From positions 1 through 34,009 of the forward strand of contig QHSQ01000145.1 of the NCBI GenBank assembly GCA_003221615.1: a DNA stretch of 34,009 nucleotides, in the 5' to 3' direction. The stretch comes from Candidatus Rokuibacteriota bacterium (GTDB taxonomy: Bacteria > Methylomirabilota > Methylomirabilia > Rokubacteriales > CSP1-6). Shown here one piece after another: positions 3,281-25,381 of the stretch. Each line of letters begins with the position of its first letter. Position 1 is the stretch's first letter. Below the pieces are notes generated by a model, which was not told the DNA's origin, searched no databases, and saw nothing but the letters and a program-made list of their open reading frames with translations. The position numbers were made by a program, and so were the translations under genes.

Positions 3281-5039
<1,759 letters not shown>

Positions 5040-5050
5040 TCTGTTTGCCC

Positions 5051-5674
5051 TTACGCCGCTTCCAGGTGGGTGCAGTCGATGTGGACAGCGACGCTGCGCT
5101 GGAGGAGCTCGACCGACACCACGAGGACGCCCTTCTTGGGATGTCCGCGCACCAGGAGCCCCTCGACGTCGGCGAGCGGACCATCAGTGATGCGTACTCG
5201 CTGCCCTTCACGGAGATACGGATACGGGAAGATCGGAATATCGGTGCGAACCAGCCTTTGAACGGCGTCGATCTCAGAATCTGGGACGGCGTCGAGCCGG
5301 TCCCACGTTTCGCCGAGCACCCGCACCACCCCGCGCGCCTTGCGGATCTCCAAGTAGGTCAGCTTGTCGATGGCGTGGCGCATGAAAAGATAGCCTCTGA
5401 ACAGCGGAACGCGAGCGCGCACCCGAACCCCTCCCCGTCTCGACCACGCCTCGGCGGTCGGAAAGAACAGGTCGAATCCCTTCGCCGCGAGCTGGTCGTG
5501 GACGAGTTGCTCGCAATTGCTGCGCGTCCAGAGAACGCGCCAGCGTGGGACCCCGAGGCGCTCAGCGGTTTCCGGCAAGGCTTCGCCCCCTTTGGTTTTC
5601 CTCACTCTCACGAGTGCAGGCACCAATCCAAACCCTCTGTTACGCAGCCGGGAGTCCGGCCGCGTGTTTGACAT
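5051..5674 (-). CDS. NusG-family transcription antiterminator (specialised paralogue of EPS operon)
   Basis: A 207-residue protein with a NusG N-terminal (NGN) domain starting near residue 43 (RWRVLWTRSNCEQ) and continuing through FRGYLFMRH. A C-terminal KOW segment follows (REGQRVRITDGPLADVEG). Known specialised NusG paralogues such as RfaH, UpxY and LoaP bind RNA polymerase and help it read long surface-polysaccharide operons. The position of this gene inside an EPS operon of more than 11 kb fits that role. The first ~40 residues are basic, have no family match that I recognise, and may be a mis-called extension, but no better internal ATG is obvious. The gene sits 30 bases after the kinase gene and 11 bases before glmS. 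The family call is firm; the paralogue role is inferred from context. Confidence 0.85.
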   Translation of the reverse strand: MSNTRPDSRLRNRGFGLVPALVRVRKTKGGEALPETAERLGVPRWRVLWTRSNCEQLVHDQLAAKGFDLFFPTAEAWSRRGGVRVRARVPLFRGYLFMRHAIDKLTYLEIRKARGVVRVLGETWDRLDAVPDSEIDAVQRLVRTDIPIFPYPYLREGQRVRITDGPLADVEGLLVRGHPKKGVLVVSVELLQRSVAVHIDCTHLEAA

Positions 5675-18501: not shown

Positions 18502-20130
18502 TCAGAGCTCCCACGGCGGGTCGACCGTCATCCGTAGCTCGAGGACGGTCGGCCCGTCGGCGGCGAGCGCGGTCTCGAGGGCGGCGCCGAGCGCGTCCAC
18601 GCCGTCCACCCGCTCCCCGCGCGCCCCGAACGCCCGGGCGAGCGCCGGAAAATCCGGATTCGCCAGATCCGCTTCGCCCCAGCGTCCCTCGAAGATCGTC
18701 TGCTGGAGCCACTTGATCGCCCCGTAGCGATCGTCGTTCATGACGAGGAACACGACCGGCAGCCGGTATTTCACGGCCGTGGCCAGCTCGTTCACCGAAT
18801 ACATGAAGCCGCCGTCGCCGACGACGGCCACCACCGCCCGGTCGGGCCGCGCGATCTTGGCGCCGATCGCGGCCGGCACGCCGTAGCCCAACGTCGCCGA
18901 GCCGACGGGATAGAGGAACGTCCGCGGCCGCAGCACGGGAAAGCGCCACTCCATCCAGTAGTTGATGCCGGTCTGATCGTTCACGACGATCGCGTCGTCG
19001 GGAAGCGCCCCGCGCAAGGTCTCGATCAGGCGGGCGACCTCCGGCGTGTAGCGCGCGCTTGCCGCGGGGCGAAGGCTTTCGCGCCAGCGATGATCCCAAC
19101 CCGCCCGGGCGGTCCCCGGACCGAGCCTCTCGAGCAGCCGCGTCAGCCCGTCCTTCGCGTCGCCGACGACCGGGAGCTCGGACTTGAAGAGTCGGCCGAT
19201 CACGGTCGGGTCGAGATCGAGATGGATCAACGTCTGCGACGGCTCGAACGAGAGATTCAGGAGCAGCCCCTGCGTCGATCGATGGGCGAAGCGGCAGCCG
19301 ACGGCGAGAATCACGTCGGCCGCCTTGATGACGGCTTCGGTGGCGCGGCTGTTCGGCAGCACACCGTGCCACAGGGGATCCCGCTCGCTGATCGCTCCCC
19401 TGCCCATGACCGTCGTGATCACCGGCGCGCCGAGACGGCGCGCGAGACGAGCCAGCTCGGCGTCGGCCTCGGCGGCGATCACACCGCCGCCGGCGATGAG
19501 AAGAGGCCTGGACGCGGCCGCGAGCAGTCGCGCGGCCTCGTGGATCGCCTCCACGTGACACGGCGGCCGCCGGCCGTGGCCGCCGCCGCCCGGCGCTGCG
19601 TCGAAGCGGCTGGTGAGAAAGTCGTTGGGGACCGAGATCGCGATCGGCCCGGGGCGGCCGGTCCGTAGCAGATCGAACGCGCCGTGCACGGTCGTCGGAA
19701 TCGCCGCCGCCTCGGTGACCGCCTCAGCCCACCGCGTGACGGGCCTGAAGCATTCGATCTGGTTCACCACCTCGTGCAAGGCGCCGAGATCGCGGCCGAC
19801 CAGCGGCGAGGCGACGTCGGACATGACCACGAGTACGGGCATCGATCCCGCGTAGGATTCGACCAGCGGCGTCAGCGCGTTCGTCGCGCCGGGGCCCGTC
19901 GTGACGACGACCACGCCCGGCGCGCCCGACGCGCGCGCGTAGCCGTCGGCCATGAAGGCCGCGCCCGCTTCGTGGCGGGCCAGCACGTGCGTGATCTCCG
20001 ACTGCCGGATCAGCGCGTCGTAGATCGCCAGGTTGTGCACGCCGGGGATCCCGAAGACGTGGCGCACGCCCTCGACCCGGAGCGCGTCGACGATCCACTC
20101 GCCGCCCGTACGCGTTGACCGATCGTTCAT
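18502..20130 (-). CDS. Thiamine-pyrophosphate-dependent enzyme, acetolactate synthase-like
   Basis: A 542-residue three-domain TPP enzyme. The N-terminal domain reads GVRHVFGIPGVHNLAIYDAL with the activating Glu in RHEAGAAFMADGYARA. The middle domain has a degenerate FAD/NAD-like fold, and the C-terminal TPP motif runs from GDGGFMYSVNELA to MNDD. It resembles catalytic subunits of acetolactate synthase, but no regulatory ilvN lies nearby, so a catabolic 2-oxoacid decarboxylase, carboligase or sulfoacetaldehyde/oxalyl-type activity is equally possible. The start is ATG 20130; an upstream in-frame reading to 20265 lies in the previous gene. It sits 25 bases after the second TPP-enzyme gene, so the two form an operon. 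Confidence 0.85.
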   Translation of the reverse strand: MNDRSTRTGGEWIVDALRVEGVRHVFGIPGVHNLAIYDALIRQSEITHVLARHEAGAAFMADGYARASGAPGVVVVTTGPGATNALTPLVESYAGSMPVLVVMSDVASPLVGRDLGALHEVVNQIECFRPVTRWAEAVTEAAAIPTTVHGAFDLLRTGRPGPIAISVPNDFLTSRFDAAPGGGGHGRRPPCHVEAIHEAARLLAAASRPLLIAGGGVIAAEADAELARLARRLGAPVITTVMGRGAISERDPLWHGVLPNSRATEAVIKAADVILAVGCRFAHRSTQGLLLNLSFEPSQTLIHLDLDPTVIGRLFKSELPVVGDAKDGLTRLLERLGPGTARAGWDHRWRESLRPAASARYTPEVARLIETLRGALPDDAIVVNDQTGINYWMEWRFPVLRPRTFLYPVGSATLGYGVPAAIGAKIARPDRAVVAVVGDGGFMYSVNELATAVKYRLPVVFLVMNDDRYGAIKWLQQTIFEGRWGEADLANPDFPALARAFGARGERVDGVDALGAALETALAADGPTVLELRMTVDPPWEL

Positions 20131-20155
20131 AGACTCACTCCGCCCGCGGCTCGCA

Positions 20156-21823
20156 CTACAGCATCGCCTTGAAGCCGCGATCGATCGCGACATCGACGAG
20201 GCTCGGGCCGGGATGCGACAGGCACGCGGCCAGCACGGACTGGAGGTTCCCGGGCTTCTCGACACGCTCGGCCCGGATGCCGAGCGACCGCGCCAGGCCG
20301 GCGTAGTCGATCGTGGGATCGACCAGGTCCATGCCCGGATAGATGCCGCGCTTGGCGGACGCGAGGTCGAGACTGAGCATCCCGGACTTGAGGATCGCGT
20401 ACGAGGTGTTGTTCGGGACGACGTACGTGATCGGCAGCTGGTAGTGCGCCGCCGTCCACAGCGCCTGCGGGGCGTACATCACCGAGCCATCGCCGATCGT
20501 GGCGACGACCTTGCGGCCCTCGGAGCCGAGCTGAACGCCGATCGCCGCGCCCATGCCCCAGCCGAGCGTGCCGGTCTTGCCGCCGTAGAACGAGCCGGGT
20601 GTCGGGAACGACATGTAACGCAGGACGAACGGAAGCGACGTTGCGGACTCGTCCACCACGACCGCGTCGGCCGGGAGCAACGAGGCCAGGGTGTGCATGA
20701 GATGCGCCTGGCCGATCGGCGTCCGCTCGGCCTCGGCCCGGGCGGCGGCGCCCACGCGCGCCATCAGCTCAGCCCTCGCCTTGCCGAGCTTCTCGACCCG
20801 CGCGGCGGCCGCGGCGCGCTCACCCTCGGTCATCCGTGAGCGCAGCGTGGTCGACAGCTCGGCGAGCGTCGCCTTCGGGTCGGCGGCGATGCCGAGCGAG
20901 ACCGGATAGCTGCGGCCGATCTCCCAGGGGTCGTCGTCGATCTGGACCACTCGCAGCCCGCGCGGGAACGGCGCGCCCTCGGTGTGCAGGAACCAGGTGA
21001 AGACATTCGCGCCGACGATCAGGAGCGCGTCGCACTCCTCGAGCGCCTTCCTGACGGCTCCCGGCGACGGAAAGAGGCCACCGCGCCACAGGGCGTGATT
21101 TCCGGCGATGTTCGTGCGGCGGTACACCGGCTCGCCGTGCACGCGCGCGCCCAGGAGCTCGGCGAGCGTCGTCAGCTCGGGGACCGCCCGCGCGCGGGCG
21201 ACGCCGTCGCCGGCGATGATGATCGGCGCGCGGGCGCTTGCCAAAAGCTCCGCGGCTCGAGCGACGGCTCCGGGCTCGGGACGCGTCCGCGCGGCGATCG
21301 GCGTCGGCCCCAAGCCCGTGTCCTCCACCGCCGGGCCCATGAGGTCCATCGGCAGCGACAGAAACACCGGCCCGGTCGGCGGCGTCAGCGCGACCTGAAG
21401 CGCCCGTCTCACGGCGACCGGAGCTTCTTCGGCGCGCCGGATCTCGTACGACCACTTCGTGAACTGCTCGGCCATACGGACGAGATCGCCCGCGAGGATC
21501 GGCTCGTCCATGAGGAAGCGGGTGTCCTGCTGGCCCGCCGTCACCAGGAGCGGCGTCTTGGACCGCGCCGCGTTGTGGAGGATCGAGAGGCTGTTCGCAA
21601 GGCCGGGCGCCACGTGGACGTTGACGACTCCCACCTGCCCCGAGGCCTGCGCGTACCCGTCGGCTGCCGCCACCGCGGTGGCCTCCTGCAAGCCGAGCAC
21701 GTACTCGAGCCCGGAGTCGGGCAGCGCGTCGAGAAACGGAAGCTCGGTCGTGCCGGGGTTGCCGAAGAGATAGCGGACACCGGCGGCGCGCAGGATCTCC
21801 ATGAGGACGGCGGCGACGTTCAT
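20156..21823 (-). CDS. Benzoylformate decarboxylase-like TPP enzyme
   Basis: A 555-residue TPP enzyme aligned by eye with Pseudomonas benzoylformate decarboxylase (MdlC). Shared segments are FGNPGTTELPFLDALP, LQEATAVAAADGYAQASG, VTAGQQDTRF, KWSYEIRRA, GPVFLSLP and the TPP motif GDGSVMYAPQALWTAAHYQL ending at NN. The first active-site His (His70 of MdlC) is kept in NVHVAPG, but Ser26 is Thr here and the His281 position reads Phe in FTWFLH, with a His two residues later. A different 2-oxoacid substrate is therefore likely. It is the first gene of a two-gene operon with the acetolactate synthase-like enzyme. Decarboxylation of an aromatic or branched 2-oxoacid is the best guess. Confidence 0.83.
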   Translation of the reverse strand: MNVAAVLMEILRAAGVRYLFGNPGTTELPFLDALPDSGLEYVLGLQEATAVAAADGYAQASGQVGVVNVHVAPGLANSLSILHNAARSKTPLLVTAGQQDTRFLMDEPILAGDLVRMAEQFTKWSYEIRRAEEAPVAVRRALQVALTPPTGPVFLSLPMDLMGPAVEDTGLGPTPIAARTRPEPGAVARAAELLASARAPIIIAGDGVARARAVPELTTLAELLGARVHGEPVYRRTNIAGNHALWRGGLFPSPGAVRKALEECDALLIVGANVFTWFLHTEGAPFPRGLRVVQIDDDPWEIGRSYPVSLGIAADPKATLAELSTTLRSRMTEGERAAAAARVEKLGKARAELMARVGAAARAEAERTPIGQAHLMHTLASLLPADAVVVDESATSLPFVLRYMSFPTPGSFYGGKTGTLGWGMGAAIGVQLGSEGRKVVATIGDGSVMYAPQALWTAAHYQLPITYVVPNNTSYAILKSGMLSLDLASAKRGIYPGMDLVDPTIDYAGLARSLGIRAERVEKPGNLQSVLAACLSHPGPSLVDVAIDRGFKAML

Positions 21824-21877: not shown

Positions 21878-22336
21878 TCAGTTCGGCCGTGGGGTCGGCG
21901 TGGCGGGGCCGAAGCGGAGGTACTTCTCGTCGATGGCGGCGCGGATCGCCGGCAGCGCCTTGCCCTCGCCTTTCATGCGCATCACGTCACGCGTGATGTC
22001 CAGGCACAGGGTTCAGGTCGCGGCGTGGCTCGTGAAGGTGACGAGCCCGTCCGTTTCGGCCTTCACGTAGCAGGACCGGTTCGACGAATGGCCGGAGCGG
22101 GCGCAGCCGCACGTGCACGGCATCCAGCGGAGCGTGTCGGCGTTGGCGGCGGCGAAGGCGTAGAGCCGAGCGGCGTCGCCCTTGGCGGCGAAGAGCGGTA
22201 GCTGGCCGCGCGGCACCGTCTGGTTCTCGTCGCCGATCTCGTCGACGGTGACCGGCTGCGCCTCGGCGCCGATCCACCAGATCACCCCGGCGGCCGCCAG
22301 CCCCAGGATCAGGAGGACGCCGATCACTCTGGTCAC
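21878..22336 (-). CDS. PCYCGC-like thiol protein, predicted selenoprotein (TGA = Sec108)
   Basis: The gene reads through an in-frame TGA at 22013-22015 to give 152 residues. An N-terminal membrane anchor or signal (VIGVLLILGLAAAGVIWW) is followed by a PCYCGC-like motif, MPCTCGCARSGHSSNRSCY (about 72-90). Next comes FTSHAAT-U-TLCLDITRDV, where family members have HAAGCxxC; the Sec thus replaces the first Cys of a CxxC pair. The 44 codons after TGA stay in frame and keep the family ending (EGKALPAIRAAIDEKY). A hairpin fitting the bacterial SECIS rules follows the TGA (separate entry). The GTG start at 22336 overlaps the TGA of the DUF1285 gene by 4 bases. It is probably a periplasmic redox or metal protein. 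If Sec is not inserted, a 107-residue fragment lacking the conserved tail would result. Confidence 0.82.
21980..21998 (-). promoter_or_regulatory. Bacterial SECIS-like hairpin for Sec108
   Basis: On the coding strand CAUCACG pairs with CGUGAUG (7 perfect pairs) around the loop CGUGA. The loop begins 21 bases after the UGA and has G as its second base, within the published bacterial SECIS limits (loop 16-37 bases downstream, G in the first two loop positions). Confidence 0.75.
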
Positions 22337-22827
22337 GCGCTTCGTCGCAAGGGGTATTCGCGACCGGCCAGGCGCAGCGCGCCGCGTCCCGTACCCTCGT
22401 CGTAGTCGGCCAGCGACAGGAGCTGGAACGCCGCCGCGCGGGAGAGGCGCGCCTCGAATGCGCCGTCCTTGACGGCGCAGTACGGCACGTCGTCGGGACC
22501 GAGCCGGAGGGTCGCCGGGTCGACGTCCATCTCGGTGCCGTCGCCCAGGAAGGCATGCAGCGTCTCGCCGCGGCGCTCGATCCTCGTGACCACGAAGGGA
22601 ACGTCCTCGACCTCGACCGGGATTCGGACGCGAGTCTGGATGAAGTAGCCCTGGGTGTCGTGCTTCAGGAGCGAGCGGAGGTTGGCGAGGATCCCCGCGT
22701 GGGTGATCAGGACGTCGTCGTCGAACCAATCACCGTCGACGTCAACGCGAAGGCGCGGTAGCCGCCATTGCGCCGGCGGCGTCGCATCGGGGTCCTCGAC
22801 GCTCGGGCCGTCGCCCGTCGCTGTCAT
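22333..22827 (-). CDS. DUF1285-like protein
   Basis: A 164-residue soluble protein of unknown function. The pattern GDWFDDDVLITHAGILANLR, then HDTQGYFIQTRVRIPVEVED and VPFVVTRIE resembles DUF1285 proteins, which share a W-x-G/D-x-I opening, a D-x-x-GYF(L/I) strand and a VEDxPFVV strand. It has no cysteine pair or catalytic motif that I can name. The ATG at 22827 overlaps the Memo-gene stop by 4 bases, and its own stop overlaps the selenoprotein start by 4 bases, so translation of the three is probably coupled. A longer in-frame reading to 23358 lies inside the Memo gene and is rejected. Confidence 0.65.
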   Translation of the reverse strand: MTATGDGPSVEDPDATPPAQWRLPRLRVDVDGDWFDDDVLITHAGILANLRSLLKHDTQGYFIQTRVRIPVEVEDVPFVVTRIERRGETLHAFLGDGTEMDVDPATLRLGPDDVPYCAVKDGAFEARLSRAAAFQLLSLADYDEGTGRGALRLAGREYPLRRSA

Positions 22828-24152
22828 TCGAACACCACGCTGGCGAACGAGACCACCCCGTTGGGATCGGGCCACTGTCCATAGCGCTTCACGCTTCCGA
22901 TCGCGCCGCCGAGCGATCGCAGCAAGGCGTAGATCGGCGAGTAGCCGCAGATGCGGCGACGGTCTCCGTCGCTCGCGACCGACTCGAAGAACGCTTGCGG
23001 GTCGCCCGCGGCCACCGACTCGAGCATGGCGACGTCCTCGCGCTCGATGCGCGCGAGCTCCGGGGCGCCGACGGGCTCGGGGTCGCCGAACCGAGGGCCG
23101 ACGTGGGCGAGATCGGCCCCGGCGATCAGCGCGACCCGTCGGCGGCCGGCCGCCATGGTCTCGGCGAGCGCCTCGAGGAACCTCGGAACACGCGGATCGT
23201 CGTCCGGACGCTGCCCCCTGTGCATCGCCTCGTGGGCGAAGCTCGCCAGGACCGGCACGATGCTGACGTCGCGTCGATCGGCGTACAGATGACGGAGGAA
23301 CACGGTCTGCAGCTCGATCGAATGCTCGACGCGGTGGGCCAGCTCCGAGCCGAAGCAATCCTGGCGCGCTCGCTTCGCGAGCGCGTCCACGAAGTCGCGG
23401 TCGACCCGAACGTCACCCAGCGGGCTCGCGTAGTCCTTCCGGGTGAGCGCGAACGGATGCTCCATCCCGGCGTGGCAGGTGCCGAAGATCACGAAGAGGT
23501 CGGCGGCGCTTCGCTCGGCGAGCTCCCGATAGGCCCAGGCGTACGCGGAGCCGCCGCGGTGGAAGTCGATGTGGGGGGCGATCACCCCGCGCACCTCGGT
23601 CGCGGCGCTCTGGCCGCGCCTCTCGGTCGCGGCGCTCCGGCCGCGCCTCTCGGGCGCGGCGCTCCGGCCGCGCCCTTCGGGCTCCGCCGCTCGCGCACCG
23701 TCGATCGGTCCCGGCCCGTCGGGCGGCGCGAAGAACCCGTCGAGCATCGCGCGGAGCTCGCCGGGCTCTCCCGCGTAGGCGCCGCCGGCGTGGGTGGCCG
23801 GACGCGTGGGCGAAGCGAGAAAAGCTCCGTCGATCACGGCGCGTCGGCCGGCGAAGCCCGGGCTGTCGAGAAATCCCTGCTGATCGAGGGCCTCGGCGAT
23901 CTCCTCGATCTGCCGCCGCTCGACGAGCTGACCGTGACGGCGCATCACCGCAGCCTGGATGTCGGCGACGGTATGGCCTCCGTCGAAGAGGGACACGATC
24001 TCGAGCAACGGGCCGTGCAGCAGGACGATCGCATCGGTGTAACCGGCGGGGTCGCGGAGCGCGACACAGGACCGTCCCTCGTGTTCCACCGGAAAGGCTT
24101 CCACCGCGCGCAACCGGGGAACCGGTTCGCTCATGGGAGGTCGCTCGCTCAT
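22824..24152 (-). CDS. Memo-family protein (AmmeMemoRadiSam system protein B-like) with N-terminal extension
   Basis: A 442-residue protein. The C-terminal ~270 residues form the Memo domain, a metal-binding fold related to extradiol dioxygenases: GVIAPHIDFHRGG supplies the first His pair, then FGTCHAGMEHPFALT, HRVEHSIELQTVFL and ALIAGADLAHVGPRFGD. The N-terminal ~110 residues look like a small winged or PqqD-like domain (LLEIVSLFDGGHTVADIQAA). The two parts are joined by a repetitive linker (separate entry). The AMMECR1 and radical-SAM partners that often accompany Memo are absent from the window. The ATG at 24152 overlaps the M20 peptidase stop by 4 bases, fixing the start; MSEPVPR at 24134 is an alternative. 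The biochemical function is unknown. Confidence 0.85.
   Translation of the reverse strand: MSERPPMSEPVPRLRAVEAFPVEHEGRSCVALRDPAGYTDAIVLLHGPLLEIVSLFDGGHTVADIQAAVMRRHGQLVERRQIEEIAEALDQQGFLDSPGFAGRRAVIDGAFLASPTRPATHAGGAYAGEPGELRAMLDGFFAPPDGPGPIDGARAAEPEGRGRSAAPERRGRSAATERRGQSAATEVRGVIAPHIDFHRGGSAYAWAYRELAERSAADLFVIFGTCHAGMEHPFALTRKDYASPLGDVRVDRDFVDALAKRARQDCFGSELAHRVEHSIELQTVFLRHLYADRRDVSIVPVLASFAHEAMHRGQRPDDDPRVPRFLEALAETMAAGRRRVALIAGADLAHVGPRFGDPEPVGAPELARIEREDVAMLESVAAGDPQAFFESVASDGDRRRICGYSPIYALLRSLGGAIGSVKRYGQWPDPNGVVSFASVVFE
23592..23695 (-). repeat. 27-base tandem repeat in the Memo-protein linker
   Basis: Three near-identical 27-base units (starting about 23592, 23619 and 23646) and a diverged fourth encode the nine-residue repeat ERRGRSAAT. 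Units differ by one to three bases. The repeat is in frame and lies between the two folded domains, so copy-number change would alter only linker length. Confidence 0.8.
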
Positions 24153-25381
24153 CGAAGGAAGTTCAGAGCCGAAGCCACGTAAATCCTCGCCGCGTCGACC
24201 AGCTCGGCGACCTCGACGTACTCGTCCGCCTGGTGCGGAATGAGGCGATGGCCGGGCCCGCACGTCACGATCGGGATGCCGAGCTGCATCCGGAGGATCG
24301 TTCCGTCGGTCGAGCCGGGGACGCCGCCGAAGACGGCGCGACGCCCGGTGGCCTGACGCACGCCGGCGACCATCGCCCGCACGAGCGGCTCGCTCCGCTC
24401 CACCTTGGTCGCGAGCCGGAATCCGTTCACGGGCTCCCACTCGATCGTGGCCCCCGGGGACCGCGCCATCGCTCGGCGGCACGCAAGCTCGATCTCGGCG
24501 GCCACCGCCGTCTCGTCGGGCCCCGGCGTGAGCCGGACGTCGAGGAGCATTCGCGCGCTCGAGGGAATCACGTTCGACTGCTCGACGCCCTGCACCGGCG
24601 CCCGTGCGATGGTCGGCGTCACGGTCGGTGGACGCAGGTGCGGGCTCTTGCGGCAGAGCTTGCGAAGCCGGCGCTCGAGCGCCGGTACCTCGTTGAGGAG
24701 CGCGCCCAGCGCCGTGATCGGATTCACGCCGGCTTCCGGCATGGCCCCGTGCGCCATGTGTCCGCGGATCGCCACCCGCGCCCACACCACGCCGCGCTGC
24801 TCGAGGCAGAGCTCGTTCTGCTCGGGCTCGCAGATGATCGCCGCGTCGAGCGCGCGGCCGATCGCGGTCGTGCAGAGGTGCTTGGCGCCGATCATGTCGC
24901 CTTCTTCGTCGACCAGCGCGCCGACGACGAGCCGACCGCTGAGCGGCGCGCCGCTTCGCTTGATGGCGGTGGCCGCGGCCATCGCGGCCGCGAGACCGCT
25001 CTTCATGTCGGCGGCGCCGCGACCGTAGATCCGCCCGTCGACGAGGTCGGCGCCGAAGGGTGGATGGATCCACTCGGCGGGATTACCCTCGGTCACGACG
25101 TCGGTGTGTCCCTCGAGCAGCAGGCTCTTGCCGTCTCCCTTCTCACCGAGCCAGGCGATGACGTTGGGGCGTCCGGGCGCGACTTGCTGGACTTCGAGCT
25201 CGAACCCCTGCTTGGCGAGCCACGTCTCGACGTGGTGGGCGACCGCGGCTTCGGTGGCGGCCGGCTCGCCCGGCCTGATCACGCTGGATATCCGGATGAG
25301 GTCTCGGGTGAGCTCGATCAGCTCCGCTTCATCGAGGCACGCCAGCGCAGCGTTGACGGCCGTGGCGCCCGCGCGGGCCAC
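24149..25381 (-). CDS. M20-family deacylase/peptidase (ArgE/DapE-like)
   Basis: A 410-residue zinc hydrolase. Metal-site motifs are visible: LLLEGHTDVV (His and the following Asp), YGRGAADMKSG (bridging Asp), LVDEEGDMIGA (catalytic Glu and zinc Glu), a C-terminal GVPGSTDGTIL, and GPGHRLIPHQADEYVEV (last His). A dimerisation lid domain lies in the middle (HMAHGAMPEAGVNPITALG). The family removes acyl groups or cleaves small amides (acetylornithine, succinyl-DAP, carnosine-like); the substrate cannot be told, as no arg or dap gene is adjacent. GTG at 25381 follows the small upstream gene by 6 bases. Its stop overlaps the Memo gene start by 4 bases. Confidence 0.92.
   Translation of the reverse strand: MARAGATAVNAALACLDEAELIELTRDLIRISSVIRPGEPAATEAAVAHHVETWLAKQGFELEVQQVAPGRPNVIAWLGEKGDGKSLLLEGHTDVVTEGNPAEWIHPPFGADLVDGRIYGRGAADMKSGLAAAMAAATAIKRSGAPLSGRLVVGALVDEEGDMIGAKHLCTTAIGRALDAAIICEPEQNELCLEQRGVVWARVAIRGHMAHGAMPEAGVNPITALGALLNEVPALERRLRKLCRKSPHLRPPTVTPTIARAPVQGVEQSNVIPSSARMLLDVRLTPGPDETAVAAEIELACRRAMARSPGATIEWEPVNGFRLATKVERSEPLVRAMVAGVRQATGRRAVFGGVPGSTDGTILRMQLGIPIVTCGPGHRLIPHQADEYVEVAELVDAARIYVASALNFLR

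Follow-up and report, generated by a model that had tools for sequence, protein, structure and literature searches.

On the minus strand of the window, by which we mean the whole 34,009-nucleotide stretch of DNA that was analysed, a gene for a long-form PCYCGC (PF13798) protein, predicted to be a selenoprotein, occupies positions 21878-22336. It comprises 152 codons, which start with GTG and run from 22336 to 21881, and it ends in a TGA stop at 21880-21878. A single internal in-frame UGA (22013-22015, read from 22015 to 22013) constitutes codon 108 and is followed by 44 sense codons. Read as selenocysteine (Sec), this codon supplies residue 108 in the context HAAT-U-TLC (HAATUTLC), which contains a UxxC motif. 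The read-through protein scored 89.8 bits against the PF13798 (PCYCGC) profile, for which the curated cut-off is 25, and it possesses all six Cys/Sec positions of the family (C-x-C-x-C and the downstream CxxC), which places it in PF13798 and bears out the family assignment made from the single sequence. The PCTCGC motif at residues 73-78 (22103-22120, minus strand) contributes three invariant Cys, equivalent to C38/C40/C42 in alignment A4. Near the N-terminus lies a hydrophobic segment (approximately 22268-22333, minus strand), a predicted export signal or anchor without a lipobox Cys, which was recognized in the translation and coincides with helix 2-23 of a low-confidence model. Read from its N-terminus, the protein thus consists of the hydrophobic segment and then of C-x-C-x-C, His, Cys, a second His that is nearly invariant, and U/C-x-x-C. 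An alignment of 20 diverse members, Cys forms of Bacilli among them, has seven positions that never vary (six Cys/Sec and one His), and close Rokubacterial orthologues are 77-87% identical to the window protein. An AlphaFold2 model built from four sequences (pLDDT 52.8) was too poor for use, and a PDB sequence search returned weak ferredoxin-like matches only (best E = 0.056), which were not used.

All neighbouring genes described here lie on the minus strand. The stop codon TGA of the gene immediately upstream (22333-22850, start not settled) overlaps the GTG start of the PCYCGC gene in the sequence GTGA; this upstream gene weakly resembles DUF1285, with 20.4 bits, below the cut-off of 29.3. 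It is preceded by a Memo-like gene (22824-23800, start approximate; PF01875, 123 bits) and an M20 peptidase gene (24149-25381; PF01546, 115.7 bits), each of which recurs in 23 of 40 long-form loci. Downstream are two genes for thiamine pyrophosphate (TPP)-dependent enzymes, at 20156-21823 and 18502-20265, both with PF02776/PF02775/PF00205; a TPP enzyme is found in 20 of the 40 long-form loci. The order M20 peptidase, Memo, short gene, PCYCGC, TPP enzymes is shared by the window and about half of the long-form loci. The gene order between 18502 and 25381 is kept in many Rokubacteria genera.

A predicted bacterial SECIS hairpin of 7 pairs lies just 3' of the UGA, at 21980-21998 on the minus strand. 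Its arms are CAUCACG (21998-21992) and CGUGAUG (21986-21980), enclosing the loop CGUGA (21991-21987), which begins 21 nt after the UGA. The sequence-only reading had described the in-frame TGA, the 44 further codons, and the 7-pair hairpin with its CGUGA loop 21 bases on, without giving a strand; all of these features are present, on the minus strand. Folding of the window gene's sequence alone was not significant (z = -1.25, with 17 of 200 shuffles as good), and synonymous recoding of this gene alone reproduced the same 7 pairs with P = 0.26, that is, in 26% of recodings. Single-sequence folding was therefore rejected as proof of a SECIS. The support is comparative. Among 43 distinct long-form sequences, the seven stem pairs are formed in 99.0% of cells. 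One A-U pair is replaced by G-C through the joint changes ATC to GTC and ATG to ACG, and one G-C pair by C-G through ACG to ACC with GAC to GAG. In the former case Ile to Val is mirrored by Met to Thr while the base pair is kept, and thus the SECIS constrains its host protein. The pairing and compensation values were equalled in only 0-2 of 500 shuffles, the independent events being few and the stem almost invariant. Codon choice under the long-form hairpin is also nearly fixed, with ACG for Thr in 43/44, GAC for Asp in 43/43, and GTG for Val in 43/43 sequences. The Arg codon in the loop is CGT in 35/44 and never CGC, as against CGT in 5/42 and CGC in 13/42 at another conserved Arg. In the short-form sequences, the hairpin is shifted one base further on and shows 12 both-side changes of its own. 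It is on this near-fixed stem, the compensated pairs, and the synonymous-codon constraint that the SECIS proposed from the single sequence now stands.

The comparative sample consisted of 95 genomes, the same 95 for the class and for the whole phylum Methylomirabilota. PF13798 matches were found in 70 of the 95, and each of the 81 matches contains an in-frame TGA (exactly one in 77 matches, two in 4); no Cys form was among these 81. Of the UGA members, 80 were examined, 45 of the long form and 35 of the short form, and in every one the UGA is part of a UxxC motif, as had been read in the window; one of the long-form sequences is from Thermomicrobium roseum, and the others, like the short-form sequences, are from Methylomirabilota. 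Downstream of the UGA, close relatives differ by dN of 0.02-0.06 against dS of 0.29-0.49, indicating purifying selection. Relatives from Bacilli align across the site and have Cys at that column, the pairing of UGA with Cys in homologues that is expected of a selenoprotein; the TGA does fall where the family has the first Cys of HAAxCxxC. In a phylogenetic tree, the long-form Sec, short-form Sec, and Bacilli Cys sequences form three groups, each to one side of a branch, with only five Cys sequences, too few to count changes between Sec and Cys.

Some individual loci depart from this pattern. One copy (L042 1501-1809, genome G009) has two in-frame TGAs, has lost a Cys of the CYCGC motif, and has a disturbed hairpin; it looks degenerate. 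Two long-form members (L082 and L083, genomes G041 and G042) have a TAG 19 codons after the UGA and are without the usual C-terminal TPTP tail. A match in Spirochaetes (L051) was rejected as a homologue, being a chance match inside an apparent histidine kinase.

The genome from which the window derives encodes the complete set of SelA, SelB, SelD, and tRNA-Sec. The tRNA-Sec (69.8 bits, anticodon tca according to ARAGORN), SelB (377 bits), and SelA (587 bits) are found together on contig C263. SelD (334 bits; L134 1501-2445, on contig G000:C106) is itself present in the Sec form, with an in-frame UGA at the known UxxK position (UASK). This well-known selenoprotein from the same genome, an enzyme unrelated to the PCYCGC protein, served as a positive control. 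Across the sample, 83 of 95 genomes have a SelA that scores above the cut-off. SelA was not found in eight TGA-bearing genomes, most of which are incomplete MAGs; a full SelB is present in three of the eight and a tRNA-Sec in three, and one of them (G087) has no more of SelB than a fragment at the edge of a contig. The sequence-only reading had named three findings that would tell against it: homologues failing to align across the TGA, a genome devoid of selA, selB, or tRNA-Sec, and a TGA produced by sequencing error. None of these came about, since homologues do align across the site, selA, selB, selC, and selD were all found, and the TGA is common to 70 genomes and is therefore not a sequencing error.

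Comparison shows coding constraint on both sides of the UGA at codon 108 and a conserved predicted SECIS after it. Because the UGA is phylum-wide, dN is below dS, the hairpin is conserved, the Sec pathway is complete, and Cys-containing relatives exist, the Sec reading is well supported, and we consider it very probable that Sec is inserted at this UGA in an exported PF13798 protein. SelB with Sec-tRNA-Sec would bind the hairpin and insert Sec. The product, 152 residues long, would be carried across the membrane by the hydrophobic segment at its N-terminus and would bear, as its invariant residues, C-x-C-x-C ... H ... C ... (H) ... U-x-x-C. For an uncultured phylum in which Sec is the only form found, this would be a clear-cut example of Sec use.

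Other readings of the UGA fare considerably worse. A genome-wide code change (code 4 or 25) that makes UGA a codon for an ordinary amino acid, and under which the frame would indeed be open, was rejected and has next to no chance of being correct: TGA also terminates the PCYCGC gene itself, many of its orthologues, and other genes, the aligned residue in relatives is Cys and not Trp or Gly, and the genome has a complete Sec pathway. It is also extremely improbable that the UGA is a genuine stop yielding a 107-residue product, the remainder having decayed or being an error in a fragmented MAG. The assembly, with 596 contigs and 8.55% contamination, and the public annotation of the T. roseum homologue, which ends at the UGA, would be compatible with such a stop, but the same UGA recurs in 81 of 81 phylum matches, dN is far below dS past it, and the U/C at this position and the Cys at +3 are both invariant, so that the conserved frame in effect refutes the proposal. 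Read error and a pseudogene were both rejected on the grounds of the 70 genomes with the same UGA and of dN/dS. An improbable alternative, if less so than a plain stop, is that read-through acts as a selenium-dependent switch, with both the truncated and the full-length forms being functional. A protein ending at the UGA would still have its signal segment along with CxCxC and the fourth Cys; nothing beyond ordinary Sec-UGA behaviour supports a switch, however, and none of the family members found was without the part after the UGA.

In proposing Sec insertion here, the sequence-only reading knew of no description of the family as a selenoprotein, and on this point it was mistaken. A recent review (PMC13188914, 2026) lists in its Table 1 a "CYCXC family protein (hypothetical protein OS_HP4)" equated with PF13798, with UxxC and one Sec, and an earlier one (PMC9312934, 2022) lists OS_HP4 with UxxC, the domain not being given. 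As cited in PMC13188914, the OS_HP4/CYCXC selenoprotein is attributed to Zhang & Gladyshev (2007). The NCBIfam entry NF041379 bears the name "CYCXC family (seleno)protein", and, according to PMC13188914, 63 selenoproteins are predicted in one Methylomirabilota MAG. Both the PF13798 selenoprotein family and the selenoprotein richness of Methylomirabilota are thus already known. The proposals of Sec, family, UxxC, and SECIS hold, while that of novelty does not.

The window gene is a member, in a distinct clade, of this known family. It shares with OS_HP4/CYCXC (NF041379) the PF13798 domain, UxxC, and one Sec. The short-form members in the phylum score above the NF041379 cut-off and have their UGA at the aligned column, whereas the window protein, at 56.4 bits (51 when the whole genome was searched), falls below the equivalog threshold of 90. 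It differs from the NF041379 family by about 11 extra residues before the HAAxU site, by its placement in a separate clade, and by a different hairpin register. With the Cys-form PF13798 (lipo)proteins of Bacilli it has in common the domain, the long form, and seven of seven invariant positions; those proteins differ in having Cys for Sec, an N-terminal lipobox Cys, a metal-resistance gene context, and, in the region of the hairpin, an EIAAQS-like sequence where the Sec form has DITRDV. A parallel outside the phylum, in a cultured species, is T. roseum WP_012642643.1 (megaplasmid NC_011961.1), also of the long form, with its UGA in the same place and identical hairpin letters (CATCACGCGTGACGTGATG). 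This member is placed within the long-form Sec clade of the tree and differs in having a lipobox and in belonging to the phylum Thermomicrobiota. What is new is modest: a long-form clade under the NCBIfam cut-off, extending across Methylomirabilota and T. roseum. A search of a collection of open-licence papers turned up no description of the clade or of its SECIS. The T. roseum gene lies at 4806-5255 of locus L128, and its public CDS (WP_012642643.1) ends at the UGA and looks truncated; current gene calling can thus cut long-form members at this codon.

What might such a protein do? The long-form loci that lack the M20, Memo, and TPP-enzyme arrangement contain genes for TlpA-like proteins, SCO1, multicopper oxidase, and DsbD. 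The short-form genes have as neighbours either a heavy-metal P-type ATPase (12), or a Fer4_5 membrane protein (15) together with genes for cytochrome c or COX2-like proteins (9). The Cys forms of Bacilli reside in metal-resistance islands with metal P-type ATPases, ArsR/SmtB, CDF transporters, multicopper oxidase, and a copper-binding protein. Because of the six invariant Cys/Sec and the His, and of the SCO1, multicopper oxidase, TlpA, DsbD, and metal P-type ATPase genes adjoining its relatives, we infer a putative extracytoplasmic role in copper handling or thiol redox. No copper genes surround the window gene, and other PF13798 clades do have such a neighbourhood; since the clade of the window adjoins M20, Memo, and TPP-enzyme genes and not copper genes, the function is carried over from relatives. 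The invariant set may constitute a centre for a soft metal, most likely Cu(I), and/or for thiol-selenol redox chemistry, which could handle copper or disulfides outside the cytoplasm.

As for copper handling alone, we regard it as a tentative assignment with a little under an even chance. Somewhat less likely, yet a serious contender, is a general thiol/selenol oxidoreductase that does not bind metal, such as a thioredoxin-like partner or an enzyme of peroxide or disulfide reduction; this proposal competes with the copper part of the explanation and not with Sec insertion. As a redox motif, UxxC is widespread among selenoproteins (PMC13188914), and the neighbouring TlpA/redoxin, DsbD, and SCO1 are thiol-redox proteins, but the conserved C-x-C-x-C and His set resembles a metal site more, and the relatives in Bacilli are located in metal-resistance islands. 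To return to copper, it is tempting to speculate, with roughly one chance in three of being right, that this is a Sec-bearing extracytoplasmic protein that handles copper or reduces copper sites, is Sec-only across Methylomirabilota, and works together with SCO1, multicopper oxidase, and copper ATPases. If true, selenium would be tied to the assembly of copper enzymes. The protein offers a connection between selenium and the chemistry of copper or thiols outside the cytoplasm that can be put to the test.

One further observation concerns the Cys forms of Bacilli. A Priestia plasmid carries a second PCYCGC copy (L129 6097-6585) that reads CGS for CGC and has Ser, not Cys, at the Sec site; an ISL3 transposase separates it from an intact Cys copy.
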